Source: Deroplatys truncata
Lineage: Eukaryota > Arthropoda > Insecta > Mantodea > Mantidae
DNA: 64,000 nucleotides
Reading direction: 5' to 3'
Assembly: GCA_030765065.1 (NCBI GenBank)
Contig: CM060978.1
Location: 215,717,498-215,781,497 of the forward strand
Made by a program: the position numbers and the translations under genes
The notes under the pieces: model-generated
Told to the model about the DNA's origin: nothing
Databases searched by the model: none
The model's input: the letters and a program-made list of their open reading frames with translations, nothing else
Shown here: positions 643 to 49,305 of the stretch, piece after piece
Position numbering within the stretch: the first letter of the stretch is position 1
Layout: the number at the start of each line of letters is the position of its first letter

Positions 643-2914
643 TAGTACTGTTATATATTTTTTACAGTAAATGTGTTTAGGTGTTAAAATTAAATATTTT
701 CTGCCGTCACAGAAATGATTATTTTAATACATAACAAGCCTAAGTGAATCAATTTTCCTGCACAGCTCCCTAAGGTAGGAGAAGTATTGTGTTCGAACCA
801 GAAATGTGAAATCTACTATATTTTATAGGAAAGAGGCGTTTTGGGATTCTCAGAGAAGGTAGAAGAAGAGGTGCTTTTTGAAAACGATCCGCACGTGATG
901 TGAGTGTTTGTTAGGTGTGCCTCTACCAATCTATGAACAGCGTAACTCAGTAACCAAGACTTGGTTAAATATACCAAATTTCTCACTCAACACCTTTTAG
1001 GAATGCATGGCAAAGCAGTTCTTCCACACTAAGGAAACCTTTACCAGAAGAATTTTGCTTTTATTTTTTACTTTCCTTTTTCCCTTCTTTTGTTTTATCA
1101 AAAATGGCTCTAATGATTATAACCAAAATGTCGTAACTTTGAGATATTTAAATAAAAACTAAAACGCAATTTTGAAGTTCCTGAAAATAATCTGTGACGC
1201 TCTCTTTATTCTAGCGGAATTTTATAAACTTAGGAAACGGTGTTAGACCAAAACTTACTTCAGCATAAATAGTCTCGTAGATCCCGTTACAATATATGTC
1301 AAACGTTTTGTTGCATTTTATTGCATTTCGAAAACATTTGCTCTTGTTCCTTTTAAGCAGTACCTTAAACTGCTATTAAGTATTCGTATTTTTTGTTTCC
1401 CATGAGTTATACAAAAATGTATAATATCTTGGAAGAGTAATTATATCGAATTCCTTCTTAAACAGATGAATACTACATTAGCTTCTTCTGCAATAACAGC
1501 AGATTTTGTGTGTTTGATTTGTAGAGTAACTTGATGAATAAAGAAAACCAATGACCGTTTACACATCATATGTTATTTTTGTAGTATTCACTACAGTAAT
1601 AGAATCGAAATTATAGCTCCATGTGTACTTCAACATTTACTCTCTTTTGGCATTATATTTTGATGGACGCAGTACTAAATATCCAGTTATATGCAGATCC
1701 AGTTTCATACAGCCAAGTAATTCAAAAAATAAGCTTTCGTTAACTATGTTAATCACATCCATGTCCACGTGTCATGAAACGTATACAAGTAATGCATAAG
1801 AATTGGATAAGTATCTACCAAGCCTAGCTAATATACGCTGAAAATGGTGGCTTTTTCATCATCCTTTCTGAGGAAGAGATTATTTTAAGCAAATACCATA
1901 AAACTTTAATTAGATTTGAGAATCCCTTTTTCGGTTACTTTAGTTGGTCACTGTATAAGACTAGGACGACTTCGTAATTTTACTTCTTATTATAAGATTT
2001 TAGCTTTACTTACTTTTGGGGTTAGATAGGTTCTCATTCCCTTCTGTCATTAACTCTTTGCTATATGATAGTTATTTTTTTTTAAAAAATGAAGGTTATA
2101 TTTCAAATTTTCAGCAATAGAACTGACATATAAAACTATTTTATTACTATATTCCAGTATAATGTTTACATTTCTCTCCTGAAATAGTGTTTTTAAATGC
2201 AAAACTCTGTTTTGAGCATCTTACATAAATAGGCGAACGACTCGCGAATTTATCTGTAATTTCAAAATTACTCGTTGCGTTACCTATGCTCACATGCATA
2301 TTTTCTTCTCAGACTGTGCCAAATATTCATGAGAACTAGTTTCTAAAGTCGAGCTTGAAGGAAAGAATTGGATAAAATACTCTATACTTTTCAAAGACGA
2401 GTTAAGGTTTTTCTTCGTTGTGAAATGGATTCTTGACGGAATATCCTGGACGGCATTGTTCAGTGTCCATTTTTAGGAAACTCTGTTCTAGAAATACTTC
2501 GTTATCTTGAGAACTTGTTCATACATTTGCTCAAATGCATAGAATTCCTTAATTATGTTCACCTTCAGAAATCTTAAAGTAGGAAGATATATATTACCCC
2601 CCCATATAGTTTTTAGGAAAACAAATATTTTATCTCGCCAATTTAAAAACAGATTTTTTCTCTTCAACAGTTACAAAAGAGATAATTCCAATGAAATCAC
2701 TAACACCATTCGGTTATCCACAACCATTAACTTAAAATCGGGTTATTCTTCCCTGAAACGCCACCTACCCTCAGTATGGACGTCAGGAGGGCGGTATTTA
2801 GGCGCTAAAGCGGAATGTATCTTAACTGCCTAATTTTGGTTATCAATTACAAATATTGACGTCACAGTGGACTCCGCATAACAAAGCAGTCATAAAGTGG
2901 TCTTTAAGGGGGGG
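643..2914. other. AT-rich DNA without a recognisable gene
   Basis: No coding region here is supported. The longest open stretch, 2555-2833 on the plus strand, has no recognisable motif and a chance-like composition. The only identifiable content is an old copy of repeat family F at about 771-1330. Confidence 0.7.
771..1330 (+). repeat. Family F repeat, strongly decayed copy
   Basis: Family F landmarks appear in the expected order: GGAGAAGTATTGTGTTCG near the 5' end, GAACAGCGTAACTCAG, TCAAAAATGGCTCTAATGAT, and a tail matching the conserved block before the microtubule-like run of AT-rich sequence that ends most copies. Many substitutions and gaps separate it from younger copies, so it is among the older insertions. 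The 3' third is not recognisable. Confidence 0.65.
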
Positions 2915-6860: not shown

Positions 6861-6867
6861 AAAAAGT

Positions 6868-7804
6868 CTGATGTGTTACACTCGCATAACTTTCTCTACT
6901 CTTGTACAAACTATTTTTACAAACTCTTATTCTCCATCTATTTCATATTAATCGAGATAAACATTTGCAGAAACAATCGTTTGACATGCAAAGAGAATTA
7001 GATTTTACACGTAGCGACCGTTCTAAAAATATTTGACTATCGCTTATGGCGTACTATGTTCCCCTTGTTTTGTATTTGCAAGGGCAATATAGAATTACAG
7101 TAGCCTTTAAGCATAGACATATCTCTTAATAGCTGGTTGCTAGGTGCAGCATCATTCTCTTTGCTACAGATTAATACTCTTTGCATATCCAAGACAAAAA
7201 ATGAATAACGAATTCCTATTTGAGAAAATAAGTATTGAAAAATTTAAGGGAATAACAAGCAATATCTCGAAAATGGTTCACTCAAAAAAAACTTACATGG
7301 CATAAATTGTATATTTTAACGCGATCTACATTTTTGTGCAGTAAAATTTTGTCTATCTCTTATGGTTTACCAGTTATGGTAAAGTCGTTCACAATAAAGA
7401 ATACTTTTGGAGACATTCCCAGAAAATTCAAGATATACATTTCATTTGTCATGAAAATATCTTAAACATACAATATTTTATTCAAAATCGTTAGAGCCAT
7501 CTTTGAGGAAATTACAATTTTCGAAAAATCTTCCATGTAAAGGGTAATCTGGGGTGGGGGATTTTCTTGAAAACGTTCGTGTCGCATCTCTGGAAGATAC
7601 TGAACCTAAATACCAAGTTTGGTGTTTATCTGACTTCGTTTCTGAGTGATGCTGTTCACAGACACACACTCGGACATGTTTCCAAAAATGTTTTTTTTTT
7701 GGATTCAGGGAGTCTCAAAACATGTATTTCAGGTGAAATCTCGGTATCGAATTTTTGAGTGGAATACAATACTACCCCTACTTAGTATACGTAGTAGAGA
7801 AACT
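6868..7804 (-). mobile_element. Family F copy, long subtype, complete
   Basis: Read on the minus strand, it runs from AGTTTCTCTACTACGTATAC to GTAACACATCAG (plus strand CTGATGTGTTAC at 6868). It is flanked by A-rich DNA on both sides (AAAAAG left, AAAAAT right), matching the T-rich target of the family. Its 3' part has about 110 bp not present in the short subtype, including TTGCAAGGGCAATATAG; the copy at 25853 shares it. The internal GT tract is nearly gone here. Confidence 0.9.
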
Positions 7805-8999
7805 AAAAATGTCGGGTTGAATGGCGACTGGTGCTGAGACCTATATCCGTACAGTTGTCCTTCCTTACTGCCATCTCGCACTAAATGGGTTCATCTCAAA
7901 ATTGTAATTCTAGAAAGGGAATAAATGATATTTTTAAATTAACATAAAATACTTTAAAAATGCACTTTTCAAGCAGAATTTATAGGTATTTATAGTTCAA
8001 TTAAGCGTTATAGGTCCTTTAGAATTTGGCGGGAGGGATCCCGCGTACATGACACGCAAAGATCTCTCTAAATGGTAGCAAAAAAAAGGTGCAGAACTAG
8101 TAATTCGCGTCATAAATATTATACTAAGGCTCGAAGTTGAGGTATCCTTTTTATGTCCGAAGACGTGTCCCAAATTATATATGCCCATTTTGGGTCACTG
8201 TAGTCAGAAAATGGTGTATAATTTGTTCCTTTTGGGCCCTATCGGTGTATTTTTTTACTTTCTTTGGTCATTTTGGCTCTTTTCGGCTGCATTTTTATTG
8301 TTCTTTCTCAGTTTGAACAGACAACAATTACTTATAAGGATTAGACTGAAAGCAGAAGCATTTTATTTATAAAGTCTTTCATATACTTGCACGTTTAAAA
8401 CCATCGGAATTCTGTATTTTTTAAAGAAAAAGCGATTAATTCTATTTCAAAGAATAACATTTGGGTGTTACATGATAGATTAAGTGCATCAATCTCTCAC
8501 TGCAATATGCATATACTAATGTACATTAAGAGTCCATAAATAACACGATTTGGAGAAAATGACGCATTTTAAAATGGCTGATGTAATGATGTTGGTGCCA
8601 GATGTCAAGGATTACATTCATTTTTAATTATGTAATTAAAAATAAAATTAACAGCATTAGTTAATTTACATCGCATTGTTACATTCTTATTTCACTTAGT
8701 TTAGGCCTTGTTGGTTTTTTTAGGCACAATTTATAGGTCTTCAATTTCCTAGCCCTAGTTATTACCATGCCTGCCACATACAATAGACTCTGTCGCGTAT
8801 AAACATTTATGTGAGCGATATTACGGTTTTCGCAGTTGCCATACTTCACGTATCATTGTGGATCCTGTGATGCCCTTTAAGTTTACCAAAGGAGGGGACC
8901 AGTTTTCGGACTAGCTCTTCTTTGCAGCAATTTACTGTTTAAAGTATTATATTACTTAGTATATAAAACTATGCTGTAAATTAAAAATTTAAAAAAAAT
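7805..8999. other. AT-rich spacer between two F copies
   Basis: No gene is supported. The open frames at 7997-8188 and 8181-8372 are short and lack recognisable motifs. Confidence 0.6.
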
Positions 9000-9870
9000 C
9001 TTATGTGATACACTCACATCACTTTCTCTGTTCTTGTACAAACTATTTTTACAAATGCTTATTCTCCATATGCTTCATGTTAATCGAGATATCGAGATGT
9101 CAATCTTATTGCTAATTTTCTTGTAGATGCAAGCGGAATTGGTAGGTTTTAAGTGATAGTCAAATATTTTATCGCTGGTTGCTATGTGGCGCATTCCATT
9201 CTCTTTGCATGTCCAGGACATAAAAAAATGTATAACGAATTTGAGAAAAAGTATAAGTATTGGAACATTTAAGGGAATAACAAGAAATATCTCGAAAACG
9301 GTTCACTCAACAACAAAAAATTATATGACATAAATTGTGTATTTTAACGCGATCTACATTTTTTGTGCAATAAAAGTTTGTCTATGTCTTATGGTTTACC
9401 AGTTATGCAAAAGTCGTTCACAATGAAGAACACTTTTGGAGACATTCCCAGAAAATTCGAGATATACATTTCATTTGTCATAAAAATATCTTAAATATAT
9501 GATATTTTAATCAAAATCGTTAAGAGGCATTTTTGAGAAAATTAAAATTTTCGAAAACTGTTCCATGTAAAGGGTACTCTGGGGTGGGGGGATTTTCTTG
9601 AACACCTTCGTGTCGCATCTCTAGAAGATACTGAACCTAAATACCAAGTTTGGTTTTTATCCGAGTGTTCGTTTCTGAGTTATGCTGTTCGCAGACAGAC
9701 ACACACACACACACACACACACACATGAACACACACACGGACATGTTTCCAAAAATGCTTTTTTTGGATTCAGGGAGTCTCAAATCATATATTTCCGGTG
9801 GAATCTCGGTATCGAATTTTTGGGTGGAATACAATACTTCCCCTACTTAACTATACGTAGTAGAGAAAGT
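9000..9870 (-). mobile_element. Family F copy with (AC)n tract
   Basis: A nearly complete copy in minus orientation, with AGTAGAGAAAGT-type ends and A-rich flanks (AAAAAAAAT left, AAAAACTG right). At the family's fixed microsatellite position, 9697-9738, it carries (AC)n interrupted by one ATGA. Close in sequence to the copy at 6868 but of the short subtype. Confidence 0.9.
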
Positions 9871-10006
9871 AAAAACTGTAACATTTACCCTTCGTAGGTA
9901 TACCATGTGTGTTATACTATTAGTATAAAAAGTTATTGTTGTTTTGACTATATCTTAATGAAAAAATGTGTGTGCCTGAAAGCTACTTCAAAATAAGAAA
10001 TAAGAT

Positions 10007-12354: not shown

Positions 12355-12657
12355 TGAATAGATGAGACTTAGAGCTTTCCAGTATTTGGTTTTAGCTAAT
12401 TCTCATGATGTCCTATTTATATAAACCTGAATGACAATGAAGGGACCTCACATTTCACAGACTATTTGCAAAAGAAGGCAGATGTACTTTTTATGTCATG
12501 CTAATACCTCAAACTTTATTGATATTTTAAAATAAAAACTGTTAAACCATATTTGAGGGAAAATACAACGACAAATTCTTCATATAAACGTATGATAAAC
12601 GACAGATGAGGAAAAAGGCAGGCGAATGTAACACATAACATTTTTAAAACCTGTAAA
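12355..12657. other. Spacer before the LINE
   Basis: No feature recognised; the last 12 bases are the left target duplication of the LINE. Confidence 0.6.
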
Positions 12658-18564: not shown

Positions 18565-18930
18565 AAAACCCCTTAACCTACCCTCCCAAAAAAGTCTATG
18601 TTTATGTGTCTTTGAACAGCATAACTCAAAACACGAGGAGTCCGATAAATACCAAACTTGGTATTTAAGTACTGTGGCTTCCAAAGATACGACACGAAGA
18701 TTTTCAACAAAAAGATTTTCATGGCAAATGAAATGTATATCTTCAATTTTCTAAGAGTGGTCTCTGAAGTACCTACTCTTTATTCTGAGTAAGAGACAGA
18801 CGAAATCTTATTACTTACACAAAAAATGTAGACTTCATTATTATGGGGTTAACCATTTCCGAGATATTGCTTTTTATTGGTTTGAATTTCCAAATACTTA
18901 TACTTTTCTGAATTACGAAGTCTTTATTAG
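18565..18930 (+). repeat. Family F fragment, 5' and central parts
   Basis: Starts inside the family at the microsatellite side (TGAACAGCATAACTCAAAAC) and keeps the blocks AACTTGGTATTTAAGT, TGAAATGTATATCTTCAATT and CCATTTCCGAGATATTGC. The segment between the hairpin-like CCC block and the ATGAAATG block is deleted. It abuts the next F copy head to tail. Confidence 0.8.
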
Positions 18931-19361
18931 TTTTTACATTCTCTGCCACTTACCTATAGCAACGAGGGAAAGTATTGTATTCCAAACAAACATTCATTAG
19001 GAAGAGTTCACCAGAAATACACGTTTTGGGACTCCCTGAATCAAAAAAGCGCCTTTAGAAAAAGGTTCGTTTGTGTCTGTGTGTGTAGATGTGGGTTTGG
19101 ATGTATGTATGTGTGTGTGTGTGTGTGTGTGTCACGAACAGCATAGGCAACTCATAAACTAAAAATCTGTTAAGTATCAAACTTGGTGTTTAAGTTCAGC
19201 ATCTTCCATGGTAGCGACACGAAGATTTTCAAGAAAATCCCCCACCCCAAACTACCTTTCACATGGAAGATATTTCGAAAATTTTTATTTTCTCAGAAAT
19301 TTTTCTAAAATTTTGATTGAAATATCACATTTTTCAGATATTTTTTATGCTAAATGTGTCG

Positions 19362-20465: not shown

Positions 20466-20593
20466 ACTTTCTCTACTACGTATAGTAAGTAGGGGAAGTA
20501 TTGCATTCCACCCAAAAATTCGATACCGAGATTTCGCTGGAAATACATGTTTTGAGACCTCCTGAATCCAAAAAAAGCATTTTTGGAAACATG

Positions 20594-20631
<38 letters not shown>

Positions 20632-21327
20632 CCTGTGAACAGCATAACTCAAAAACGAACAGTCGGATAAGCACCAAACTTGGTATTTAGGTTCAGTATC
20701 TTCTAGAGATGCGACACGAAGGTTTTCAAGAAAATCCCTCCACCCCAGACTACCCTTTACATGGAAGATTTTTCGAAAATTTTAATTTTCTCAAAAATGG
20801 CTCTAACTATTTTGATGAAAATATCATATGTTTAAGATAATGTCACGAGAAATGAAATGTATATCTCGAATTTTCTGGGAATGTCTCCAAAAGTGTTCTT
20901 CATTGTGAATGACTTTTGCATAACTGGTAAACCATAAGAGATAGACAAAATTTTACTACACAAAGAATGTAGATCGCGTTAAAATACACAACCTATGTCA
21001 TATACATTTCTTTTGTAGAGTGAACCGTTTTCGAGATATTGTTTGTTATTTCCTTAAATTTTCCAATACTTATACTTTTTCTCAAATTCGTTATTCATTT
21101 TTTGTATGTCCTGGATATGCAAAGAGAATGGAATGCGCCATATAGCAACCAGCGTTAAAATATTTGACTATCGCTTAAAAGCTACCATATTTCCCTTGCA
21201 TCTACAAGAAAATTACCAATAAGATGACATCTCGATATCTCGATTAACATGAATCATATGGAGAATAAGCGTTTGTAAAATTAGATTGTACAAGAGTAGA
21301 GAAAGTCATGTGAGTGTAACACATCAG
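20466..21327 (+). mobile_element. Family F copy, complete reference-quality
   Basis: An 862-bp copy from ACTTTCTCTACTACGTATAG to GTAACACATCAG, flanked on both sides by CTTTTT. The (GT)n tract, about 20 units, is at 20593-20630. An inverted GTAGAGAAAGT lies 21 bp inside the 3' end, complementary to the 5' ACTTTCTCTAC. No open frame of note is present, so it is non-autonomous. It is inserted in an older F copy. Confidence 0.92.
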
Positions 21328-21624
21328 CTTTTTTCTTTTTCTTTCTTTATCTGTTTCTTTCTTGTGGTCATGCAAATAGAACGGAATTTTAAAGTCGTCA
21401 CATGCGACACGCTCTTAAAAGATTTGACTATCGTTTAAGCCTAGTGTGTTGTCCTAATCCCCTTCTACTGACAAAGAAATATTTAATTAAAGCATTCCCT
21501 CAAATGTTTACCTTGATTAATGTGAAGTGGATAGAGCCGTCCTCTCTTATATTATAGGACTGCCGCTTAACCCTAAATTTGCCTAATCCCCCTTTTTTCA
21601 TTTATATACCCCTTTTAACTCCTA

Positions 21625-23031: not shown

Positions 23032-23113
23032 TTTCCCACGCCCGGCGGGAATCGATCTGTAACCTTTTGTTGAAAAGTAAGCTCTACGACCACTCGACCA
23101 CGGAGGCAGTGTA
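23032..23113 (-). repeat. tRNA-like sequence, probable SINE head
   Basis: The minus strand shows an A-box-like TGGTCGAGTGGTCG and a B-box-like AGATCGATTCCC about 40 bp apart. A cloverleaf is not complete, so a functional tRNA is unlikely. Confidence 0.5.
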
Positions 23114-23124
23114 ACTTCTTTTTT

Positions 23125-23265
23125 ACCTACAAGAAACTATACAATAAAACCATTTCTGCAAATGCGTTTATCAATTAGCATGAAGTAGACAGAAGAATAC
23201 ACTTTTGTAAGAACAGTTCGTTGAAGAATGTGTTGAGAAGTTCATTTGGATATAACACACCAGAG
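23125..23265 (+). repeat. Family F 3' fragment
   Basis: Contains the end region of F (AACCATTTCTGCAAATGCG, TTAGCATGAAGTAGA, AACACACCAGAG), head-to-tail with the next copy. Confidence 0.75.
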
Positions 23266-23268
23266 TTT

Positions 23269-24055
23269 TACTTTCTCTACTACGTATTTAAAGTAATAGT
23301 ATTCCAGCCAAAAATTCGATGTTGAGATGTCACCGGAAATAAAACTTTGAGGTTCCCGATATCCCATAAAGTGTGTTTAGAATAACAAGGAAAAGTCCAT
23401 TAAATACGAAACTCAGTATTTAAGCTCAGGTCTTTAAAAGGATGCGACACGAAGATTTTTGGACAAAATCCCCCATCCCAAACTACCCTACGCATGGAAA
23501 ACTTCCTTTTTTTATTTTCTGAAAAATGGCTCTAATAATTTTTATTAAAAATACCATATGTTTAAGCAATTTTTAGGACAAATAAAATGTATACCTTGAA
23601 TTTTCTGGGAATAGCCTCTAAAGCTCTCTTTATTCTAAATCACTTTTGTGTAACTAGTAAACCATAAGAGAGAGAGAGACAGAGAGAGAGAGAAATCTTA
23701 CTACACAAAAATTATAGATCTCGTCGAAGCACACAATTTATATCAGATAAATTAACCATTAACCACTTTAGAGATATTCTTTGACATTGTCTTCAACTGT
23801 CAGACCTTTACACTTCTCTCAACTACAAACCGCTATTCCTTGTTTTTCTTTTTCCTTTCTTTCTTTTTCGTGTTCATCCAAAGAGAACAGACTTTGACTA
23901 TCACTTTACTTATTTGTACTCTTCTTATACCGATAACGAAATGCGTAATGACAGTTTATCTGCATTAACAAGAAGTGAATAAAAGAATAGGATTTTTTAA
24001 GAATAGTTTGCAGAAGAGTGAATAGAGAAAGTCGCGTGAATGTATCACATAAAAT
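23269..24055 (+). mobile_element. Family F copy, diverged
   Basis: Begins TTTTACTTTCTCTACTACGT and ends near GAATGTATCACATAAAA. The GT tract has been lost with a nearby deletion, while an (AG)n tract occurs at 23668-23692. The 3' part keeps GACTATCACTTTACTT and AAGAATAGTTTGCAGAAG. Confidence 0.83.
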
Positions 24056-24436
24056 TTTTAAGATTTTGTGTGTTGATATGAACTTCCTAAATGTGCGATT
24101 CGATCTTCAGAGATCTGATTTATCTATATTAGGAAAATGTTCATTATGAGCTTGTATGCACTATTACTGTTTCGGAATTTCTCCATATAAAATATTAATG
24201 CTTATATGCGTTTTACTATACTGCTAGACTGTTCGGTGCTTCCGCGACATAATTGTGTTGTACAGCAAACCGTCGAGTTATTAGAGCTCTGAACCAGAAG
24301 CTAGTTTGAAATAATTTTAAGCGTATCATTTGAGAGGAATGTATAAATGATTAAACCTGCTATGTCTAAAAGAGTTAGACCACCTGCATGATGAAATTTT
24401 ATAGGTTCGAATCTAAAAAGGTAGTCCTAATGCATG
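24056..24436. other. Spacer before Tc1 copy D
   Basis: No gene seen. It may be the host DNA next to the 3' end of the R1-like LINE, which is cut off at the Tc1 insert. Confidence 0.5.
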
Positions 24437-25566: not shown

Positions 25567-25852
25567 TATATTTACGTCCTAGATTCTTGCTATTCTTCTT
25601 TGACATCATCAATTTTTAATATTTCAGCAGGATGCGACCAGTTCTACGGCTCTATTTCTATTTCAAAATCGTGTTCCACTTCTACTTTTCTTTTTATAAT
25701 TTTATAGAACTGAGCTGTCTCTTCTGCTTTAATTGTTATAGGGATCATACCCACAAGCACACAAAGTGCCTCGGTTGGTGTAGTTCGGAAGGCTTTAGTT
25801 ATAAGGTTTATAAGTCTCAGAATGATAATGTAGTTTGCTCTACTGTATTTTT

Positions 25853-27330
25853 ACTTTCTCTACTACGTATAGTAAGTAGCGGAAGTATTGTATTCCACTC
25901 AAAAATTCGATACCGAGATTTCACCGGAAATATATGTTCTGAGACCCCCTGAATGCAAAAAAAGCATTTTTGGAAACATGTCCGTGTGTGTGTCTGTGTG
26001 TCTGTGTGTGTGTCTGTGTGTGTGTCTGTGTGTGTGTGTGTCTGTGTGTGTGTGTGTCTGTGTGTGTGTCTGTGTCTGTGTCTGTGTCTGTGTGTGTCTG
26101 TGTGTGTCTGTGTCTGTGTGTGTGTCTGTGTCTGTGTGTGTGTCTGATTGTGTGTCTGTGTGTGTCTGTGTGTGTGTGTCTGTGTCTGTGTGTGTGTGCC
26201 TGTGTGTGTGTCTGTGTCTGTGTCTGTGTCTGTGTGTGTGTCTGTGTGTCTGTGTGTCTGTGTCTGTGTGTCTGCGTCTGTGTGTGTCTGTGTCTGTGTC
26301 TGTGTGTGTGTCTGTGTGTGTCTGTGTGTGTCTGTGTGTGTGTCTGTGTGTGTGTCTGTGTGTGTGTGTCTGTTGGTGTGTGTCTGTGTCTGTGTGTTTG
26401 TGTGTCTGTGTGTGTGTGTCTGTGTGTGTGTGTCTGTGTGTGTCTGTGTGTGTGTGTCTGTGTGTGTGTCTGTGTGTGTGTCTGTGTGTGTCTGTGTCTG
26501 TGTGTGTCTATGTGTGTGTGTCTGTGTGTGTGTGTATGTGTCTGTGAACAGCATAACTCAGAAACGAACAGTCGGATAAACACCAAACTTGGTATTTAGG
26601 TTCAGAATTTTCCAGCGATGCGACACGCAGGTTTTCAAGAAAATCCCCCACCCCAGATTACCCTTTACATGGAACATTTTTCGAAATTTTTAATTTTCTC
26701 AAAAATGGCTCTAACTATTTTGATTAAAATATCCTATGTTTAAGATACTTTTATGACAAAATGTATATCTTGAATTTTCTGGGAATGTCTCCAAAAGTAT
26801 TCTTCATTGTGAACGACTTTTGTAAACCATAAGAGATAGACAAAATTTTACTGCACAAAAAATGTAGATCGCGTTAAAATACACAATTTATGTGATATAC
26901 ATTTTTTTGTTGAGTGAACCATTTTCGAGATATTGCTTGTTATTCCCTTAAATCTTTCAATACTTATTTTCTTCAAATGGGAATTGGTTATTTATTTTTT
27001 TGTCTTAGATATGCAAAGAGTATTAATCTGTGGCAAAGAGAATGGTCCTGCACCTAGCAACCAGCTATTAGGATATATGTCGATGCTTAAAGGCTACTGC
27101 ATTTGTATATTGCCTTTGCAATTACAAAACAAGGGGAACATAGTACACCTTAAGCGATAGTCAAATATTTTTAAAACTGGTCCCTATGTGTAAAATGTAA
27201 TTCTCTTTGCACGTCAAAAGATCGTTTCTGCAAATGTTTATCTCGATTAATGTGAAATAGATGGAGAATAAGAGTTTGTAAAAATAGTTTGTACAAGAGT
27301 AGAGAAAGTCGTGTGAGTGTAACACATCAG
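25853..27330 (+). mobile_element. Family F copy, long subtype, with giant microsatellite
   Basis: A complete copy with ACTTTCTCTACTACGTATAG at the start and GTAACACATCAG at the end, flanked by ATTTTT on both sides. It interrupts the RT-coding part of the R1-like LINE, so the empty site can be inferred. It shares the extra 3' block with the copy at 6868 (TTGCCTTTGCAATTACAA). Its length, 1478 bp, comes from a 570-bp microsatellite. Confidence 0.93.
25979..26548 (+). repeat. GT-rich compound microsatellite inside F
   Basis: About 570 bp of GTGTGTCT and GTGTCT words with a few interruptions such as CTGATTG, GCCTG, CTGCG and TTGGTG. It sits exactly where other F copies have 15-45 bp of GT. Long cysteine/valine and threonine/histidine frames across it are by-products. 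Confidence 0.97.
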
Positions 27331-29699
27331 ATTTTTTTGTTTAGGTTTCTAATCAAACTGGTGCTCCATATAGCATAAGTAGTAAAATTACTCCTTTATA
27401 AATATGTTTAAGAGCCTGGTGAATTAATCCCCAACTAATTTTTGCAGATTTCGAAAGTGCATGGACTAATTAGGTCATTTCTGACTTACGTAGAGAAGTT
27501 AAATGTCTTGTCCATAATTATACCTAGATATTTCATTTTAGTTGTTCCAATTTTTTATGCAAATAAATGCTTATTTCTTTTGATTCCCTCCTTTTTCTTC
27601 TTGATACAAATATAACATGTGATTTTGATCCATTAAATGTGTTTATGTTATTTTCTGACCTTTTGTCAATTTATACACTCCCATATTCATAACGTTTTCC
27701 AGCTCCTTCGCATATCCTTCATTTATGGAGGCCAATAAATCAACAAAACTGCTGTTCTTGTGTATTTTTCAAAGTTTATGTGTAATATAGAATTGTACAT
27801 AACGTTCCATAATCCTGGTCCACAGCATGATCCTTGCGGGCATCATTTTGTAATTTCTTTTTCCTGCTCTTCATTATTAATTGAAAAAAGCAGTAGTTTT
27901 TCACAAGATTATATAGGCTACGAGGACAGTTAAAATCTTTAGAGCTTTCAGGATGCTGGGTCACCAGGCGGCGTCGAAGGCTCCATTTATGTTCACACTA
28001 GCAAGTGCGACCTGTTTATTTTCTAGAGCTCCTTCTACAAATTTCTTAATTGTCATTGCAGCATCTCCCGTACTTTTTGATCAGTGAATCCATGTTGGTT
28101 AGCGTTTAGTAAGTCATACTTATACATGTGGTGCTTTATCCTATTTATAAGGAGTTTTTGCAGAGCTTTGCCGCCAAAATTTAGTGGACTAATAGGTCGG
28201 AATTCTGAGACATCTAAACTGTTTTCCTTTCCTAGCTTCACAAGTGGAATTAACCTAGCTCTTTTCCAACAACTGGCCTTGTCGTAGGCAACTGTTGTAT
28301 ACTTCTGTTAGATAATTTGGGGAAATTTTGAACGCTCGAAGGAATAATAATTCCATCTTAACCTGTGGCTTTATTATGGTTAAAACTTCCTAACACACCT
28401 TTAGCTTCTGGTGTAAGCCCCAGATCATCGCTTGTTTTTTATTGATTTCTCAACTAAATTTTTTATGTGTTTATGATATTTTTATCTTCTTTTTTATCAT
28501 CATTTGTTGTTAGTTGATCTATTATGCAATAAATTGTTTCTTTGATATTGCTACTTAGGGAGCCATCGGTTTTCTTAGCCTTGTCATTACTGCATTATTT
28601 TTATATTTTCCGGATGCAAGTTTATACATTTCACTCTAAGGATTAATAAATGCTCTTACACTACAATACTGCTTCCAGCAGTTTTTTTTTCATTTTAGAT
28701 TGGTATTCTCTTTTTCCTTCAGATGTTGATTTTTACGTTTTTCGCTAAGTGTTTCGTTGTTTTTGTTTTTTGGAACCTTCTCCTTAAATCAATACCTCTT
28801 TTTCTAATTATTGTAGGTTCATCTGTCCACCATGGGACTGGTTTTTTTCTGATGATGTAGTTGACATATTGTATACTCCAAAGAATTTATCACTTGCCTT
28901 AATTCGTGTTTTTGTAATATGCTTACTGTTCCTTCGATTTCACATTCTTCTTTCATCTTTTCTGCTAGTACTGAATCAAGTTTCTTAATTTCTGGATCAT
29001 TCACTCTTTTATTCAATTTCTTATTTATTTCTTGCACAAATACTTATCAAATTCTGCAAACGTTTCTTCGTGTATTCTATAACATATGTTGCTAATTATA
29101 AATACCCCGTAATTTTTATATTTTCCTATGTTATAGGTAAATAATCTTATGATCTGAGCAACTATCTTCATGGTTAATGGTTCAGTCAGCAGTATTGGCA
29201 ACGAGTCTGCTGTTAGTAATTGTTACACCATTGTTGCTTTTTCCTCTCCTATTATAAAAGTGGTGACTTCACTTTCTTCACTCAGAATAAATAACTGCTT
29301 GCTTGATATGAATTCTTCAAGTGCCCTGCCACTTGTGCTATTTGGGATATCATGCCAACTTGTGGATCTTGCATTACTATCTAAAGCAACAGTATTCCTA
29401 CTCATTTCGTTAATTCCATAATTTCTACTACTGCTCTCAGGTCAATGTTTATATCTCTTCCAATGTCAAAATACATGCTAGGCACAAACAACATTTCAAT
29501 TCTATGAATAATTTCTAGTACTACCGCATCTTCATTTGGTATTTGTTCGATTAAAAGGACGTCTATTTTTCTGTTTGTTATTATTAAAGCTGCTCTGCTT
29601 CTTTCACTTCCTGAACTAAATGCCCCGTATCGTTTAGAAATCCCCACTAATTTATTAAATGTATACGGCTCTTGTTAAAATATCATGTCTAAACTATTT

Positions 29700-31789: not shown

Positions 31790-33478
31790 AAAATATTATG
31801 TGATACACTCACATGACTTTCTCTACCCTCTATCCTTTATTAAGTGGGTATATAAAATATTCTTGCTAAAGCTTATTGCTTTCTCTACTACGTATAGTAA
31901 GTAGTGGAAGTATTGCATTCCACCCAAAAATTCGATACCGAGATTTCACCGGAGGCCACCTGAATCCCAAAAAAGTATTTTTGGAAACATGTCGTGTGTG
32001 TGTCTGTCTGTCTGTCTGTCTGTCTGTGAACAGCATAACTCAGAAACGAACAGTCGGATAAACACCAAACTTGGTATTTGGGTTCAGTATCATCCCAGAG
32101 ATGCGACACGAAGGTTTTCAAAAAATCCGGCAACGCAGATTACCCTTTATTGAAACATTTTTCAAAAATTTTAATTTTCTCAAAAATGGCTATAACGATT
32201 TTGATTAAAACATTATATATTTAAGATACTTTCATGACAAATAAAATGTATATCTCAAATTTTCTGGGAATGTGCTCAAAAGTATTCTTCATTGTGAACG
32301 ACTTTTGCATAACTGGTAAACCATAAGAGATAGACAAAATTTTACTACACAAAAAATGTAGATTGCGTTAAAATACAGAATTTATGTCATATACATTTTT
32401 TTTTGAGTGAACCATTTTCGAGATATTGCTTGTTATTCCCTTAAATGTTCCAATACTTATACTTTTTCTCAAATGGGAATTCGTTATTCATTTTTATGTC
32501 CTGGACATACAAAGAGAATGGAATACTCCACATAGCAACCAGCTGTTAAAATATTTGACTATCGCTTAAATCCTACAAATTCCCCTTTCGCTACAAGAAA
32601 ATTAGCAAAAAGATTAACATCTCGATATCTCGATTAACATGAAGCATATGGAGAATAAGCTTTTGTAAAAATAGTTTATACAATAGTAGAGAAAGTCGTG
32701 TGAATGTAACACATATGTTTTTTCTATCAACTACGTTTTAATCCAAATAAACCTTTGCAGAAATAGCTACATTACACATTTCGTTAGGATACAAAGAGAA
32801 AAGCTCTAGTCAAATGTTTAAGAACTGGACGCTATATGCTGGCTTTAAAATTCCATATGTTTCTATGCATTCGTGAGAAACAACTGTAAATCGATGGGTT
32901 TTAAAAGAAATGACAAAGTACTGAAAAAATCGAACAATTAACAACGGTTATATTGGAAATGGTTGATGACTCAAAACAGTTATATGAAATAAATTGCGTG
33001 TTTTCGTCTATCTTTAACGTTTACTAGTTATACGAGATTATACAAAATTCCTTCAAAATTAAGGGGACTTCACAGGCTATTGCCAGGAAATTCAAGATGT
33101 ACATTTTATTTTTCACGTAAATATCTTTAATATGTGGTGTTTTAATCAAAATCGTTAGAGCTATTTTTAGAAAATAAAAAAATCGAAAAATTTTCCATAT
33201 AGTAAGGGTAGGGAGATTTTCTTGAAAATCTCCATTTCGCATCTTTGGAAGGTACTGAACCTAAATCACAAGTTTCGTAATTGTGCGAATGTTCGTTTTT
33301 GAGTTATGCTGATCACAGATACAACACACACACACGCACGCACGAACCATTTCTTTCTAAAAATGTTATTGGCTTTAGAAGACCTCAAAGCATGTATTTC
33401 CGGTGAAATCTCGGTATTGAAATTTTAGGTGGAATGCAATACTTTCTTTACCTATATGTGCGTGTAGAGAAAGTAAAA
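31790..33478 (-). mobile_element. Family F copy, minus strand, split by another F
   Basis: The piece 31790-31878 is the 3' end of a minus-strand copy (GTGATACACTCACATGACTT), and the piece 32718-33478 continues it to its 5' end (GTGTAGAGAAAGTAAAAA). A plus-strand copy lies between. The outer copy is quite diverged and belongs with the older copies; it has only a short AC/GC run at 33325-33342. Confidence 0.82.
31879..32717 (+). mobile_element. Family F copy, complete, nested
   Basis: Runs from CTTTCTCTACTACGTATAGT to GTAACACATATG. It has a short (GTCT)n tract at 32000-32024 and lacks the TACATGTTTTGAG stretch after the CACCGG block. Its orientation is opposite to that of the F copy it split. 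Confidence 0.9.
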
Positions 33479-36110: not shown

Positions 36111-36115
36111 TTTTT

Positions 36116-36911
36116 ACCTTCTCTACTACGTATAGTACGTAGGGGAAGTATTGCATTCCACCCAAAAATTTGATAACAAGATTTCACCGGAAATACATGT
36201 TTTGAGGCCTTCTGAATCAAAAAAAAAGTATTTTGGAAACATGGCCGTGTGTGTGTGTCTGTCTGTGAAGAGCATAACTCAGAAACGAACAGTCGGATAA
36301 ACACCAAACTTGGTATTTAGGTTCAGTATCTTCCAGAGATGCGACACAAAGGTTTTTAAGAAAATCACCCCACCCCAGATTACCCTTTACATGGAACATT
36401 TTACGAAAATTTTAATTTTCTCAAAAATGGCTCTGACAATTTTGATTAAAATATCATATATTTAAGAAACTTTCATGACAAATAAAATGTATATCTCAAA
36501 TTTTCTGGGAATGTCTCCAAAAGTATTCTTCATTGTGAACGACTTTAGCATAACTGGTAAACCATAAGAGATAGACAACATTTTACTACACAAAAATGTA
36601 GATCGCGTTAAAATACACAATTTATGTCATATAATTTTTTTTGTTGAGTGAACCATTTTTGAGATATTGCTTGTTATTCTCTTAAATTTTCCAATACTTA
36701 TAATTCGTTATTGATTTTTTTGTCCTGGTAATGCAAAGAGAATGGAATACTCCACATAGCAACCAGCTCTTAAAATATTTGACTATCGCTTAAAGATACC
36801 AATTCCCCTTGCATCTACAAGAAAATTAGCAATAAGATTAACATGAAGTATATGGAGAATAAGCGTTTGTAAAAATAGAATAGAGAAAGTCATGTGAGTG
36901 TAACGCTTCGG
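36116..36911 (+). mobile_element. Family F copy, complete
   Basis: 796 bp between ATTTTT direct repeats (36110-36115 and from 36912). Only a short GTGTGTCT run remains at the microsatellite position. The 3' end has lost about 15 bp around TTTGTACAAGAG. Confidence 0.9.
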
Positions 36912-37211
36912 ATTTTTTCTTGGAGTACCCTCGACATTAATACACTCTAGAAATTCCCTTGTGGATTCCTGTGATATTAAAATAAATTATATTTATCAGT
37001 GGGTTGATTCCCGAGTCACATGTAGTTCATAAGGTGCGTTTATTTTGGCAGGCTGCTTCAGCACGAAACGTGTTCAGTTCATGAGATTTTTGCAGGCTAC
37101 AGCGCAGCCAGCCCTCACCTCTCCTACTCTCCTCAAAAGAAAAGCGTCGATTTCCTCCACATCACCTCTGCACAGTGTTTGAAGCTGAACTGTTGCCTTA
37201 TTGTCTACGTA

Positions 37212-42390: not shown

Positions 42391-42924
42391 CCATCTCTCT
42401 TCCTCTCACTCCATATCTCTTACTATCTCTGAAACGTAGATGTTTTGAAAGTCGGTACAAAACATCTATTTCTGACATGTTAACCAAAATTAAAATTTAA
42501 AGAACCTGTTTCTATACTTATTGTGTTTTTCAGAACTATACTGCTTCCAACACTATCAGAAAAAAACAATATAAGTTCAAAATAATTATTTCGGGAGAGT
42601 GTTAATGTCCTTTAAGCGGGAAGGTCATATCGGATTATGAATTAAATGAAATGGGTGAAATGATGCTCAGGGTTCATATCGCTTATAGCTATCACATTCA
42701 TCTTCTGAGGATAAGAGATCTCCCCCCAAAAAGCTTGTAAAAGCTTATCCAGTCAGCTCGCCCCAGCGAAAATTCAAACTCGAGGCCTTTTAATTACGAA
42801 GCAATCACGCTACCCGTGCATCTCAGATGTGGACAAATGATAATGATTATGTGTTACAATAATTGTCTCCTGTATGCAAATAATAGTACCTTTTTAAATG
42901 TTCATCATCTAAAATATTTAAAAC
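42391..42924. other. Spacer with a weak tRNA-like patch
   Basis: The first part may belong to the LTR A internal region. At 42745-42835 the minus strand shows TGAGATGCACGGGTAGCG and GAGTTTGAATTTTC at tRNA-like spacing, a probable SINE relic. Nothing else is seen. Confidence 0.45.
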
Positions 42925-43703
42925 AATTCAAAAAATTCTAATGTTAATCTTTTTGCTTATTTTCTTGTAGATGCAAGGGGAATATGGTAGGTTTTAAGCG
43001 ATAGTCAAATATTTTAACGCTGGTTGCTATGTAGCGCATTCCATTCTCTTTGTATGTCCAGGACATAACAAAATGAATAACGAATTTCCATTTGAGAAAA
43101 GTATAAACATTGGAAAATTTAAGGGAATAACAAGCAATATCTCGAAAATGGTTCACTCAAAACCAAAAATGTACATGACATAAATTGTGTATTTTAACGC
43201 GGTCTACATTTTTGTGTAGTAACATTTTGTCTATCTCTTATGGTTTACCAGTTATGCAAAAGTCGTTCACAATGTAGAATACTTTTGGAGATATTCCCAG
43301 AAAATTCAAGATATACATTTTATTTGTCATGAAGGTATCTTAAATATATGATATTTTAATCCAAATCGTTAGAGCCATTTTTGAAAAATATGAAATTTTC
43401 GAAAAATGTTCCATATAAAGGGTAATCTGGGTTGGGGGATTTTCTTGAAAACCTTCGTGTCGCATCCCTGGAAGATACTGAACTTAAATACCAAATTTAG
43501 TGTTTATCCGACTGTTCGTTTCTGAGTCATGTTGTTTACAGACACACAGACAGACACACAGTCACAAACACGGACATATTTCCAAAAATACTTTTTTTTA
43601 TTCAGTGCACCTCAAAACATGTATTTCGGGTGAAATCTCAGTATAAAATTTTTGAGTGGAATGCAATACTTCCTCTACTTAGTTATACGTAGTAGAAAAA
43701 GTA
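42925..43703 (-). mobile_element. Family F copy, 3'-truncated
   Basis: Minus strand; it starts at the internal GTTAATCTTTTTGC and runs to the 5' end at GTAGTAGAAAAAGTAAAAA. The last 90 bp or so of the 3' end are missing. At the microsatellite position it has CAGACACACAGACAGACACA (43541-43564). Confidence 0.87.
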
Positions 43704-43706
43704 AAA

Positions 43707-44495
43707 ATCTTGTGGTTCATTCGCATGACTTTGTCTACTGACTATCGTTTATATTCTTATAGCTTCTACAAATTATTCTTCCAAAAACTTATGGTTCAAT
43801 CTACTTCAAGTTAATTGGGATAAGCTTTTGCTTAATAGTTTAATTACACATTTCGTTATAGGTACAAAGGGAAAAGCGATAGTCAAATGTTTAAAAACTG
43901 GTAACTATATACTGGCCTTGAAATTCTATACTATTTCTATGACATTATGAGAAACAAGTGAAGGTTGGTTGTACTTCAAAAAATGAAATAAGTATTGACA
44001 AATTTAAACCTACAACAACGGATATCTCGGAAATGGTTTATGCTACAAGCAAGTTATTTGAAATAAATTGTATCATTTAAGGAAATCTATATTTGTTGTG
44101 CACTACGTTATTGTTTGTCTCTTATGATTTACATGTTACACAAACTTTCGTCCTGACAGACTACTTCCAGAAATCTCAAGACATACATTTTGTCATATAA
44201 ATAACTTAAGTATATGTTAAATCAAAATCCTTGGAGCTATTTGTGAAAAATTCACAAGTAATTAAAAACTTTCTATGTAAAAGGTGCTTTGGGGAGAGGG
44301 TTCTTAAAAATCGTGTCGTTTGTTTTAAAGGTACTTAACTTAAATGTTAGGTTTGGTATTTATCAGGAATTTAGTTTTTGTATCATGCTGTTCACAGACA
44401 CACGCGCATGTACACACACACACGTATTTCCGGTGGAATCCCGATATGCAATTTTTGGGTGACAACTTCCTCTACCTATAATGTACGTAGTAGAA
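43707..44495 (-). mobile_element. Family F copy, diverged, in tandem with the previous one
   Basis: Begins ATCTTGTGGTTCATTCGCAT at the 3' side and ends ACGTAGTAGAAAT. A short (AC)n tract is at 44414-44424. It is the older partner of a head-to-tail pair and close in type to the outer copy at 31790-33478. Confidence 0.8.
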
Positions 44496-44716
44496 ATAAC
44501 AATTAGCAAGATAATTCGATCTTTTGACTTCCTGCCCCAATAAAATCCCCATTCATTCATTCTTGAGTGAAAAGATACGATATTTGGCTTCAACGTAAGC
44601 TCATTATGCACTTTAATATTAGTAATTCATCCAAGTTACCAGAAAACGTGTATTATAGTTTCGTTGCACCTAAGTTTATATTGTATGTCAGATACGAATT
44701 AAATGTAACACTTTTT

Positions 44717-45553
44717 ACTTTCTCTACTACGTATAGTAAGTAGGGGAAGTGTTGTATTCCACCCAAAAATTCGATACCGAGATTTCACCGGAAATACATG
44801 TTTTGAGATCCCCTGAATCCAAAAAAGTATTTTTGGAAACATGTCCGTGTGTGTGTCTGTGAAAAGCATAACTCAGAAACGAACAGTCTGATAAACACCA
44901 AACTTGGTATTTAGGTTCAGTACCTTCCAGAGATGCGACACGAAGGTTGTCAAGAAAATCCCCCTACCCCAGACTACCCTTTACATGGAAGATTTTTCGA
45001 AAATTTCAAGTTTCTCAAAAATGGCTCTAACGATTTTGATTAAAATATCATATATTTAAGATATTTTCATGACAAATGAAATGTTTATCTTGAATTCTCT
45101 GGGAATGTCTTCAAAAGTATTCTTCATTGTGAACGACTTTTGCATAACTGGTAAGCCATAAGAGATAGACAAACTTTTACTACACATAAGATGTAGATCG
45201 CGTTAAAATACACAATTTTTGTCATATACATTTTTTGTTGTTGTTGAGTGAACCATTTTCGAGACATTGCTTGTTATTCCCTTAAATTTTCCAATACTTA
45301 TACTTTTTCTCAAATGGGAATTCGTTATTCATTTTTTTACGTCCTGGACATGCAAAGAGAATAGAATACTCCACATAGCAACCAGCTCTTAAAATATTTG
45401 ACTATCGCTTAAAGCCTACCAATTCCCCTTGCATCTAAAAGAAAATTAGCAATAAGATTAACAGCTCGATTAACATGAAGCATATGGAGAATAAGCGTTT
45501 GTAAAAATAGTTTGTTCAGGAGTAGAGAAAGTCATGCGAGTGTAACACATCAG
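44717..45553 (+). mobile_element. Family F copy, complete
   Basis: 837 bp from ACTTTCTCTACTACGTATAG to GTAACACATCAG. TTTTT-type runs lie on both sides (CTTTTT left, ATTTTTG right). The GT tract is minimal (GTGTGTGTCTGTG near 44847), so this may show the state before microsatellite growth. A good model for the family. Confidence 0.93.
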
Positions 45554-45724
45554 ATTTTTGTTTTCTATTTTAGAATTTGGGATGTATTGTGTTATGATAT
45601 TGGGACTACGATTGAATTAAGCTGCTCTTATGATTTAAATATCCCACGTCCGTACCAATGACATCCTTTCTGCTGGAGATGTCGACAAACGCTAAATATT
45701 CAAGATATGAACTACCACAATCTT

Positions 45725-46455: not shown

Positions 46456-46544
46456 GCTTATTACTTTATCTAGTACTTGCTTATAGTAAGCAGAAGAGAT
46501 ATCCCATCCATCCAGAAATTCAGTATCGAGATTTTACCGAAAAT

Positions 46545-47552
46545 TGAAGCAAGGTATGGAAAGCCAATTTGAAAAGGTTGTTGCTTCACGTATGGTATGT
46601 TGTTGAAGGAGGAGTTGTATTCTAGTTCTAATGTTGGGGAGCCGAACTTGATGTAGTTGCAACCACGTGTGGTCTTCGCCCCAGTGTTCACTTTCCGGTC
46701 GTCTTCGCCCCGAGTTTACTTTCCGGTGGTCTTCGCCCTAAGTTTAGGAATCAACTTTGTATTTTTTTATGTTTCTTTAAATATTATATATATTTATGTT
46801 TGCCTCGGCTGCGTCAGTATTAATTTGTAGAAACACGTATCTCTTTGCAGGGGTTGATGCGGCTAAAGAATGTAGGCTTACACAAATTATAATTTTTTAC
46901 TTCACTCCATTTATTAATCCTTCACACGATTAAATAATACTTCACTGATATAGAAAGCTGTGGGATTATTTATTAATTACTTGCACTTTTCAACACGTAA
47001 ACTTCATAATATTTTTCGCCGTAATGAATTTTCGTCTCACACTCAATACGTATTAAACTTCTCGAGGACGCGTTTCGCGCCCAGTTAGGAACGCTGTCTA
47101 CTAGCAACTGACTTCTACCGCCTGAATTTGCAAATTTTTATCTATTTCAAGTCTCTGATTGGGTAATCCTACTCCAATAGAATAATTTAATTAAATTTTA
47201 GGTTTTCTGGTTGTTTATTGGCTGTTTATAGACTGTTTTAAAAAATTACATTATTGTTGCTCCAATAATTACTAGTAGCATTATTAAACTGTCCAATTCA
47301 TTATTGCCTCAAGGTTACCTCATTGTTAGCAACTTTTGACCTATATTCTCACATCTCCTACATTATTAAATTACGTAATACATTCACATAACATTATTAT
47401 ACATGTATACAATAATATAAACATTAACACAATGGCTGTTACATACACTTTATATATTATATTGTACAAATATTACTTTAAGGCGGGCTGTTATTAAACT
47501 TTACATTATATAATTAGACTGAAATCATTTCAATGTTAAAAATACTGCCTCA
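46545..47552 (-). mobile_element. Solo LTR, type B, long form
   Basis: 1008 bp with TG...CA ends (TGAAGCAAGG left, ACTGCCTCA right), flanked by AAAT at 46541-46544 and 47553-47556. It is the reverse-oriented relative of the 41599 copy. It is longer mostly through a 28-bp repeat and through extra sequence near 46840. Confidence 0.88.
46670..46746 (+). repeat. 28-bp tandem repeat within LTR B
   Basis: 2.7 units of GTGGTCTTCGCCCC followed by GAGTTTACTTTCCG. The shorter copy at 41599 has only one related unit near 42275. Confidence 0.9.
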
Positions 47553-48089
47553 AAATACATGTTTTGAGACTCCCTGAATCCAAAAAGAAGAAACACGTCC
47601 GTGTGTCTGTGAACAGTATATCTCAAGATCGAAAATTCAGTTAAATACAAAACTTGCTAATATTTAAGTTAAGCATGTTCCAAGAATGCGACGTGAAGGT
47701 TTTCAAGAAAATTCCCACTCTAAACTACCCTTTAGATGGAAAATTTCTCATTTTTTCTTCTCTCAAAAAAGTCTAACGATTATTATTAAAATACCACACA
47801 TTTAAGACATTTCCACGATACTGAAATGTATATCCTGAATGTTCTAGGAATAGCCAGTGAGGTTCTCTTCATTCAGAAAGGAAGTTCTGAAAATATTCAG
47901 TTCTTTCCTGCTGTCATGGAAGGAGTATAGAATTTCCAGGCAGTATATAGCGACTACCTTTCAAACATCTGATTATCAATTCGTTTTGCTCTATCCCCCT
48001 TGCACCTTCAACGAAATGTGTAAACAAACTATTTGTATAAAATTTAAGCTGAATCTACATGAAGTAAATAGATAAATAAGCTTTCGTGA

Positions 48090-49305
48090 GAACAATTTGT
48101 GGAAGCTATATCAAAATATACGATACAGGGTAGACATAGTGTTGCGAGTGTACCGCAAGGCTATGTGTGTCCGTGTGACTGAGAATACCATAACTCAAAC
48201 ACGAAAAGTTGGTTTAATATCAAACTTGGTTTTAATTTCAGCATCTTTTAAGGATGTGACACGAATATGTTCAAAACATTCCCCCACCCCATGCTGCCAT
48301 TAGATGGAAAACTATTCATGATTCTTTTATTTTCTCAAAAAATGATTAAGGATTTTGATTAAAATCGTTGATTGGATTGTGAAGCGGAAGGGATTCGACA
48401 CCGATCCAGGAATGAAGATATTGTAACGACGCCCCACGAGGTGGTGCCCCGGAAGGGAGGGTTGAGGTGAATGGAGACACCGGCGGCCGGAACTAGGAGT
48501 GACTACAGTTGCCAGATTGAGACACTCCGGCAGACCGGGGACCCAGCACCACACAGGTCCAACGCTCCCAAGGGGCGGTCCTTAAACCCCTGTAACCAGC
48601 CGAAGGCCGAAGGACGGAGAAAGTTCACAGAGAGCATCTTTTTTCCCTGCCACGCTGCACCGAAACATCATCGCCACATTTAACCCTGAAACAGATCAAA
48701 CGGAATGAAGGATGAATGAAATGATTAATGGAACAGAATGGAGGGACAGGAAATTCGGGGGATAAGGGAAACCACTTCAGCATTCGCCTGACGACCTGGG
48801 AAAACCTCCGACGAATAAAACCGGGAAGCGAGTCCTGGACCTTCCGAATGCGAGGCACAGACGTTATCGCCTGAGCTATCCCCATCGGTAAAATACGTAA
48901 ATATATTTAAGATATTTTTGTAAAAAACTGAAATGCATATTCTTAGTTTTCTGGGAATAGCTCTGAACTTCTCTGCATTCTGAATGACATTTATATTATT
49001 GGTTAACCGCAACAATACACGGAGATAGACCAAAATCTTACTACACACAAAAATTGTGATCTCGATGAAGCACACAATTTGTGTGAAATAAAATTTACTT
49101 TTGGAATTAACTACGCATTTCCAAGGTATTCCTTATTATTGGTTAGAATTTCCAAATTTGTATACTTTTCTCAACTGGGAAGTCATTATTCATCTGGTTT
49201 TTGTTTGCTGTTTTTTTCGTAGTTATGCAAAGAGCATAGCATTTCAAAAACATCACATACCAACAAGATCTTTAAAATTTTGATTATCACTTTACCTACT
49301 TCAGT
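48090..49305 (+). mobile_element. Family F copy split by a SINE
   Basis: The first part (48090-48365) runs from just before the microsatellite position (GTGTGTCCGTGTGACTGAG) to TTGATTAAAAT. The second part (48890-49305) continues with ATATTTAAGATATTTTTG to TTTTGATTATCAC. The 5' end is missing. AAAAT is present on both sides of the SINE. Confidence 0.82.
48366..48889 (-). mobile_element. tRNA-derived SINE, long, inserted in F
   Basis: On the minus strand the head begins near 48889 with an A box GATAGCTCAGGCGATAACG. The B box is weak (GGACTCGCTTCCC near 48830). The long GC-rich body ends at 48366. The TTTTCCCAGG stretch after the head matches the SINEs at 45725 and 59500. AAAAT flanks it on both sides. 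Confidence 0.78.

Follow-up and report, generated by a model that had tools for sequence, protein, structure and literature searches.

What kind of mobile element carries a 12-bp inverted repeat at its very 5' border and the matching repeat at some distance from its 3' border? This question is raised by the repeat at positions 20466–21327 of the window (the whole 64-kb stretch of DNA analysed), which was originally predicted to belong to an abundant mobile family, here called family F, lying outside the described classes of element. Family F is most likely a known kind of element that is very abundant in the window. It is very probably a HINE, that is, a non-autonomous Helentron (a rolling-circle transposon of the Helitron2 type), built like DINE-1 of Drosophila, and it is probably moved by an autonomous Helentron located elsewhere in the genome, as would be expected by analogy with known families.

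Abundance and divergence of the family

The repeat is real, and the estimate of at least 20 copies or parts in the original prediction is correct. The 5' end motif ACTTTCTCTACTACGTATAG occurs 11 times in the window with up to three mismatches (no occurrence in 100 shuffles), and the 3' end motif GTAACACATCAG occurs five times, four times exactly and once with one mismatch (shuffle mean 0.45, maximum 3). A profile built from 11 copies, the eight core copies described below and those beginning at 43702, 23270 and 44500, gave 39 matches; these amount to 15,901 bp, which is 24.8% of the window, with 19 reaching the 5' end of the model and 15 its 3' end. BLAST likewise shows family F in the window. 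Ten dinucleotide shuffles searched with the profile gave no match, and the reversed-sequence control gave a single weak match, on a GT microsatellite; because this control also matched a GT array, the matches at 10940–11084 and 31029–31116, which overlap such arrays and are still counted among the 39, are doubtful and may be spurious. Coordinates are collected in Table 1.

The eight core copies possess both ends, in keeping with the predicted mobile repeat with fixed termini (5' ends at 7804−, 9870−, 20466+, 25853+, 31878+, 36116+, 44717+ and 50374−). They are 86–93% identical to one another and, in the interior alone, 91–96% identical to their own consensus, and family F is therefore not very young. 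The copy beginning at 43702 is 82–86% identical to the core copies, and the older copies beginning at 23270 and 44500 are 68–72% identical to them. Copies 7804 and 25853, which are 92.7% identical, make up a subfamily with an extra internal block. No inverted repeat of at least 25 bp was found in this block; it does include a short inverted match of 72–76% to another part of the element in copy 20466, detected by BLAST and also by the profile.

Table 1. Positions of family F copies, their parts and the landmarks of the reference copy in the window.
Feature	Positions	Strand	Remarks
Reference copy with 3' T-run	20466..21334	+	Same-orientation insertion in older member, 20202-20464 and 21353-21536
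5' subTIR/ATIR ACTTTCTCTACT and fold-back partner AGTAGGGGAAGT	20466..20499	+	5' hairpin, 12-bp arms
Internal (GT)n microsatellite	20597..20629	+	TGTC/GTCY units in several other copies
3' subTIR/ATIR AGTAGAGAAAGT	21295..21306	+	Inverted version of 5' subTIR, 22 bp from T-run
3' palindrome region CATGTGAGTGTAACACATCAG	21307..21327	+	Stem ATGTG/CACAT; some copies ATGTGA/TCACAT
Full copy, extra-internal-block subfamily	6863..7808	-	
Full copy	8995..9874	-	
Full copy, subfamily of 6863-7808	25849..27335	+	GT/TGTCTG array ~570 bp
Full copy inside inverted older copy	31874..32723	+	Paralogous empty site, decides T-run
Inverted resident around 31878, 3' part	31790..31877	-	
Inverted resident around 31878, 5' part	32720..33478	-	
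Full copy	36112..36916	+	
Copy, 3' end degraded	42842..43706	-	Head-to-tail behind 43704-44502
Older copy	43704..44502	-	Next element begins directly after its 3' T-run
Full copy	44713..45558	+	
Full copy inside inverted older copy	49582..50378	-	Second paralogous empty site, within T-run
Resident of 50374 insertion, 3' end	50375..50555	+	Runs head-to-tail into 50556 element
Further copy, 5' part	50556..50891	+	Directly behind 3' T-run
Older copy, 3' end	23113..23268	+	Head-to-tail ahead of 23270, T4 between
Older full copy	23266..24058	+	subTIRs 12/12 and 11/12, interior 72%
5' part of copy	18932..19355	+	Inserted at same internal T-run as 20466
Resident fragments ahead of 18936	18595..18936	+	
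Diverged fragment	772..1415	+	
Diverged fragment	12390..12589	-	
Diverged 5' end	46459..46545	+	
Four diverged fragments	47553..49328	+	47553-47879, 47894-48158, 48163-48365, 48901-49328
Diverged fragment	50941..51035	+	
Diverged 5' part	52339..52844	+	
Resident fragment and 5' end at 54101, apparently inserted in resident	53956..54268	+	
Diverged copy with nested 5' end of second copy (63947)	63538..64000	+	Cut by window end

Structure of the ends and coding capacity

Read from left to right, the layout of family F is T-rich host DNA, ACTTTCTCTACT-ACGTATAGTA-AGTAGGGGAAGT, an interior with a GT/GTCY microsatellite, AGTAGAGAAAGT-CATGTGAGTGTAACACATCAGA-T(5–8) and host DNA again. The predicted 12-bp inverted match, terminal at the 5' end and internal at the 3' end, is genuine and asymmetric, lying 0 bp from the 5' border and, in the consensus, 22 bp upstream of the 3' T-run. 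Folding of the first 34 bases gives a hairpin with full 12-bp arms in three of four sequences (z −2.05, −2.39 and −1.69; for copy 20466, with z −2.05, the minimum free energy is −4.7), and the fourth, the 5' end of copy 7804, formed no hairpin. Across 19 copies, 87.4% of 214 cells are paired, as opposed to 47–62% when the partner is slid. Covariation in this hairpin does not rise above that of shuffles, the paired percentage being reached in 174 of 500 and the covariation score in 281 of 500. The palindrome that follows the 3' subTIR has a stem of 5–6 bp at the expected place in some copies; it folds better than shuffles in two of five sequences (z −2.74 and −2.56) and no better in the other three (z 0.10, 0.93 and 0.23). 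In copy 23270, the subTIRs agree with the consensus at 12/12 and 11/12 positions and the interior at only 72%, as would be expected if the enzyme that moves the element needs its ends. Against such end conservation, the 5' subTIR of copy 44500 retains 8/12 positions and the 3' subTIR of copy 43702 only 5/12.

The microsatellite sits in the 5' half of the copies. In copy 25853 it takes the form of a GT/TGTCTG array some 570 bp long (25979–26546), far longer than in the other aligned core copies. Five stop-to-stop frames of at least 150 aa lie inside copies, all of them across this array, and one further frame of that length (10986–11489) overlaps the doubtful match at 10940–11084. Apart from frames across a GT array, the copies have no open reading frame of at least 150 aa, and family F is, as predicted, apparently non-coding at this threshold. 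It contains no tRNA-like part (ARAGORN, bacterial code) and gave no Rfam match at the gathering score.

Insertion sites, nesting and the 3' T-run

The original prediction placed the 3' boundary at CAG, which is probably too short; the element usually continues for one more base, mostly A, and then a run of five to eight T. Such a run marks the 3' border in 12 of the 15 profile matches that reach this end (beginning 1–2 bases further on in two of them); among the other three, the end at 23268 has T4 and those at 42842 and 48158 are without a T-run. At the opposite border, 13 of the 19 elements start directly behind T5, including 50556 with its start placed at the A, and the remaining six follow TTATT (three), TAATT, ATATT and GTTTT.

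Nine of the 19 5' ends adjoin another member of the family. The copies at 20466, 18936 and 54101 are inserted at one and the same internal T-run of a resident copy (consensus position about 632), 54101 being counted as nested on the 150-bp flank test only (z 6.2; z 1.2 with 60 bp), and 63947 is inserted at resident consensus position 428. The copies at 23270, 43702 and 50556 begin directly behind the 3' end of a resident, head-to-tail, with a single shared T-run of 4–5 T. In all of these cases the insertion has the orientation of its resident. The left flanks of 25853, 36116, 44717, 9870 and 7804, five of the eight core copies, have no clear family match within 150 bp (z ≤1.8). The copies at 52343, 46463, 36116 and 33474 were considered as nested and rejected, since their left flanks gave z values of 1.9–2.9 with 60 bp and of −0.5 to 1.1 with 150 bp; in BLAST, the match of 52343 reaches beyond the start of 20466 into its left flank, by about 30 bp.

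The copies at 31878 and 50374 interrupt inverted residents and thereby provide paralogous empty sites; the resident is visible on both sides at these two sites and at 20466. When the flanks are joined (the slash marks the junction), 31878 gives GCTTATT/CT and 50374 gives TTTTT/AA, and with the right-hand T-run removed the joined flanks agree with the resident consensus, with small gains in score (123 versus 117 at 31878, 162 versus 158 at 50374). At 31878 the insertion lies directly behind TT with no target-site duplication (TSD) of at least 3 bp. Because the target there is TTATT and the right border is T6, the T6 is not a duplicated target but a 3' T-run borne by the element, although a single informative site does not establish this for the family. 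At 50374, the left T5 and right T8 fit an element-borne run and a T-run duplication alike, and at 20466 the two placements of the T-run score 216 and 215. A 2-bp duplication of TT is possible at all sites examined. The left T5 was also considered as part of the element, given that its length is mostly exactly five; this was rejected because 290 of the 407 T-runs of at least five in the window (71%) are exactly five long and because the nesting at 31878 puts the element-borne run on the right.

The head-to-tail copies can be explained either by read-through of an end signal or by insertion behind the T-run of a resident. It is also conceivable, though unlikely, that family F targets itself, the element-borne T-run acting as a docking site and each copy as a platform for the next; this reading rests on 19 ends, in a window of which family F makes up about 25% and to which it contributes many T-runs itself.

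Comparison with known elements

The comparison with HINEs is one of described features. The paper on HINEs in Mob DNA (2014) is attributed to Thomas, Vadnagara and Pritham, that on DINE-1 in Genome Biol (2008) to Yang and Barbash, and that on Helitron2 in Mob DNA (2013) to Bao and Jurka.

According to the portions of these papers used here, Helitron2 ATIRs lie 0–2 bp from the 5' end and about 20–30 bp from the 3' end (PMC3627910), and the subTIRs of HINE/DINE-1 elements are likewise asymmetric (PMC4067079; PMC2374699). Helentron/Helitron2 elements are described as having a 5' hairpin in which the first repeat takes part, a 3' hairpin after the second, and insertion at oligo-T without a TSD (PMC3627910; PMC4067079), with a GTCY-rich microsatellite and, next to the 5' subTIR, a partial inverted repeat (PMC2374699; PMC7492417); in several animals such elements were formerly annotated as MITEs (PMC4067079). 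The claim that family F lies outside the described classes fails because an asymmetric inverted repeat is among the features that define Helentron/Helitron2 and HINE/DINE-1 elements in these portions of text (PMC3627910; PMC4067079; PMC7492417; PMC2374699). Helentrons (Helitron2) were missing from the list of classes originally excluded, and their features are largely present in family F.

The HINEs described in excerpts of the 2014 paper, HINE-Mo of the mite Metaseiulus occidentalis and HINE-Cq of Culex, resemble family F in having subTIRs of 12–15 bp, one close to the 5' end and the other in a subterminal 3' position, a palindromic 5' subTIR region, a 3' palindrome (a candidate one in family F), T-rich borders and targets, no coding capacity and an optional microsatellite (PMC4067079). 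They differ in the position of the repeats, the 3' subTIR of the mite HINE lying about 38–60 bp from the 3' end and that of family F 22 bp from the T-run, and the 5' subTIR 2–4 bp in versus directly at the border (PMC4067079). DINE-1/INE-1 of Drosophila has 13-bp subTIRs, whereas that of family F, ACTTTCTCTACT, has 12 bp, and no central tandem repeats were seen in family F beyond the microsatellite (PMC2374699, in part). The passages on Helitron-1N1_CRe of Chlamydomonas describe a 5' ATIR 0–2 bp in that forms a hairpin, a 3' ATIR about 20–30 bp inside, before a hairpin, and insertion behind TTTT without a TSD, features that family F resembles, the 3' hairpin and the lack of a TSD being less clear there; the sequence differs, and presumably the host does too (PMC3627910). 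The Fanzor-bearing elements CRe-1, 2 and 3 are reported there with TSDs of about 7–19 bp (PMC3627910), which were not seen in family F. Cg_HINE of the Pacific oyster (Sci Rep, 2020) shares with family F, as far as the excerpt describes it, a subTIR of 11–12 bp, an adjacent complementary inverted repeat, a GTC-type microsatellite, a 3' palindrome (a candidate one in family F) and oligo-T sites, but has central satellite-like arrays where only the microsatellite was seen in family F (PMC7492417).

Searches beyond the window returned no relative. A text search of the literature for the end motifs gave no transposable-element paper by title, and in a second one, on HINEs and Helentrons, PMC7492417 and PMC4067079 alone among the titles listed deal with Helentrons. 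As exact patterns, TTTCTCTACTACGTATAG was found in no stretch of the viral contigs and GTAGAGAAAGTCATGYGAGTG in none of the prokaryote genome contigs; in the viral and prokaryote collections, TGTGAACAGCATAACTC occurred in one stretch and TTTTTACTTTCTCTAC in 72. None of the 73 loci with TGTGAACAGCATAACTC or TTTTTACTTTCTCTAC matches the family F profile at E ≤10, and BLAST of the same loci gave, among the matches listed, short words with E ≥0.03. An absence of relatives among viruses and prokaryotes is expected, since family F looks like a repeat of animal genomes.

Class assignment and rival explanations

The HINE reading is preferred because the end anatomy, 5' fold-back, GT/GTCY microsatellite, T-rich insertion and nesting largely match published features of Helentrons. 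A canonical Helitron (Helitron1) has TC at its 5' end and CTRR with a hairpin at its 3' end, and inserts between A and T; by inspection, CTRR is found at the end of neither strand of family F, which inserts behind TT, so that the original exclusion of this class holds. A scan of the six frames of the 64-kb window with motif patterns, which agree with the motif quoted in PMC4067079, found neither the Rep motif of Helentrons (G[SL]PH.H) nor the Walker-A motif GxxGTGK[ST].

The original prediction was also right that family F is not a standard MITE with terminal inverted repeats (TIRs): such an element has them at both ends, and the 3' repeat of family F lies 22 bp inside. A broader reading would make it a MITE-like cut-and-paste element that duplicates TT or oligo-T targets, is moved by a DDE transposase and uses its asymmetric repeats as internal binding sites. 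The inverted repeats, short length and lack of detected coding capacity would agree with this, a 2-bp TT duplication suits both empty sites, and duplication of oligo-T suits 50374 and 20466; the authors on DINE-1 report the same ambiguity in the part of their paper used here (PMC2374699). Such an element is nevertheless improbable, given the internal position of the 3' repeat, with the palindrome region outside it, and the TTATT target and T6 right border at 31878, where no duplication of at least 3 bp is seen.

The T-runs at most ends give oligo-A borders on the complementary strand, and the repeat might accordingly be taken for a retroposon, such as a SINE, with an inverted poly(A) tail that appears as the T-run. 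Retroposons are expected to be truncated frequently, whereas both termini are present in all eight core copies, and family F has neither a tRNA-like head (ARAGORN, bacterial code) nor an Rfam match, which makes this origin highly improbable. Hardly any weight can be given to the idea that recombination, instead of transposition, has spread family F as a tandem or satellite-like repeat, despite the three head-to-tail junctions and the repeated nesting: both orientations occur, the left flanks (the only side considered) of five of the eight core copies lack a clear family match (150 bp, z ≤1.8), and the two copies that interrupt inverted residents already contradict it.

Other repeats and open reading frames in the window

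A Pfam scan of 10 open reading frames (ORFs) in the window gave, at or above the curated cut-off, transposase or DDE models only. Fragments of Tc1/mariner-type transposase ORFs lie at 34625–35158 (−), 39150–39959 (+), 37616–38068 (−) and 51540–52199 (−); the models matched by ORFs of this type are HTH_Tnp_Tc3_2, DDE_3 and Transposase_1, and the ORF at 51540–52199 (−) gave only DUF4817, just below the cut-off. A segment of some 80 bp, which begins with TACACTACGTGATCAAAAGTATCCGGACACC, is common to 11159–11239, 21620–21700, 25492–25568 and 39894–39971; these segments look like the ends of Tc1-type transposons, because one of them adjoins the Tc1-like ORF at 39150–39959. The Tc1/mariner ORFs and the repeat content would point to an arthropod or another invertebrate as host. 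At 13916–17180 (+), ORFs resemble a non-LTR retrotransposon, with parts that by eye look like a zinc knuckle and RNase H, and the three ORFs scanned gave no Pfam match at 0.001. A tandem array of about 1.5 kb with TGG/GTGGTGATG-type units occupies 4791–6277, with a higher-order unit of 234 bp at 5425–6017, and short 36-bp tandem arrays, whose units appear by eye to be partly reverse complements of each other, lie at 19700–19823 and 40916–41003.

A probable transposition cycle

Known families suggest how a HINE such as family F would move, most probably as a rolling-circle copy-and-paste passenger. An autonomous Helentron would supply in trans the Rep/helicase(-endonuclease), which would recognise the subTIR and hairpin ends, nick the T-rich 5' junction and displace one strand. 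Copying of this strand would stop at an end marked by the 3' subTIR and the palindrome that follows it, and the copy would then be joined directly behind TT or oligo-T in host DNA. The 5' hairpin may be opened, and the product closed, when the 3' subTIR pairs with its 5' counterpart; subTIR–subTIR pairing that melts the 5' hairpin and marks the end of the round is proposed in the part of the Helitron2 paper used here (PMC3627910).

Implications

The assignment places about a quarter of the window in a known class, and illustrates that a reader equipped only with the rules for MITEs, CTRR-ended Helitrons and SINEs misses the passengers of Helentrons. The readable empty site at 31878 puts the T-run at the 3' end of the element, a point on which the DINE-1 and HINE papers are ambiguous in the portions used here. 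If family F did target itself, head-to-tail arrays in one orientation would represent a self-seeding route to satellite formation.
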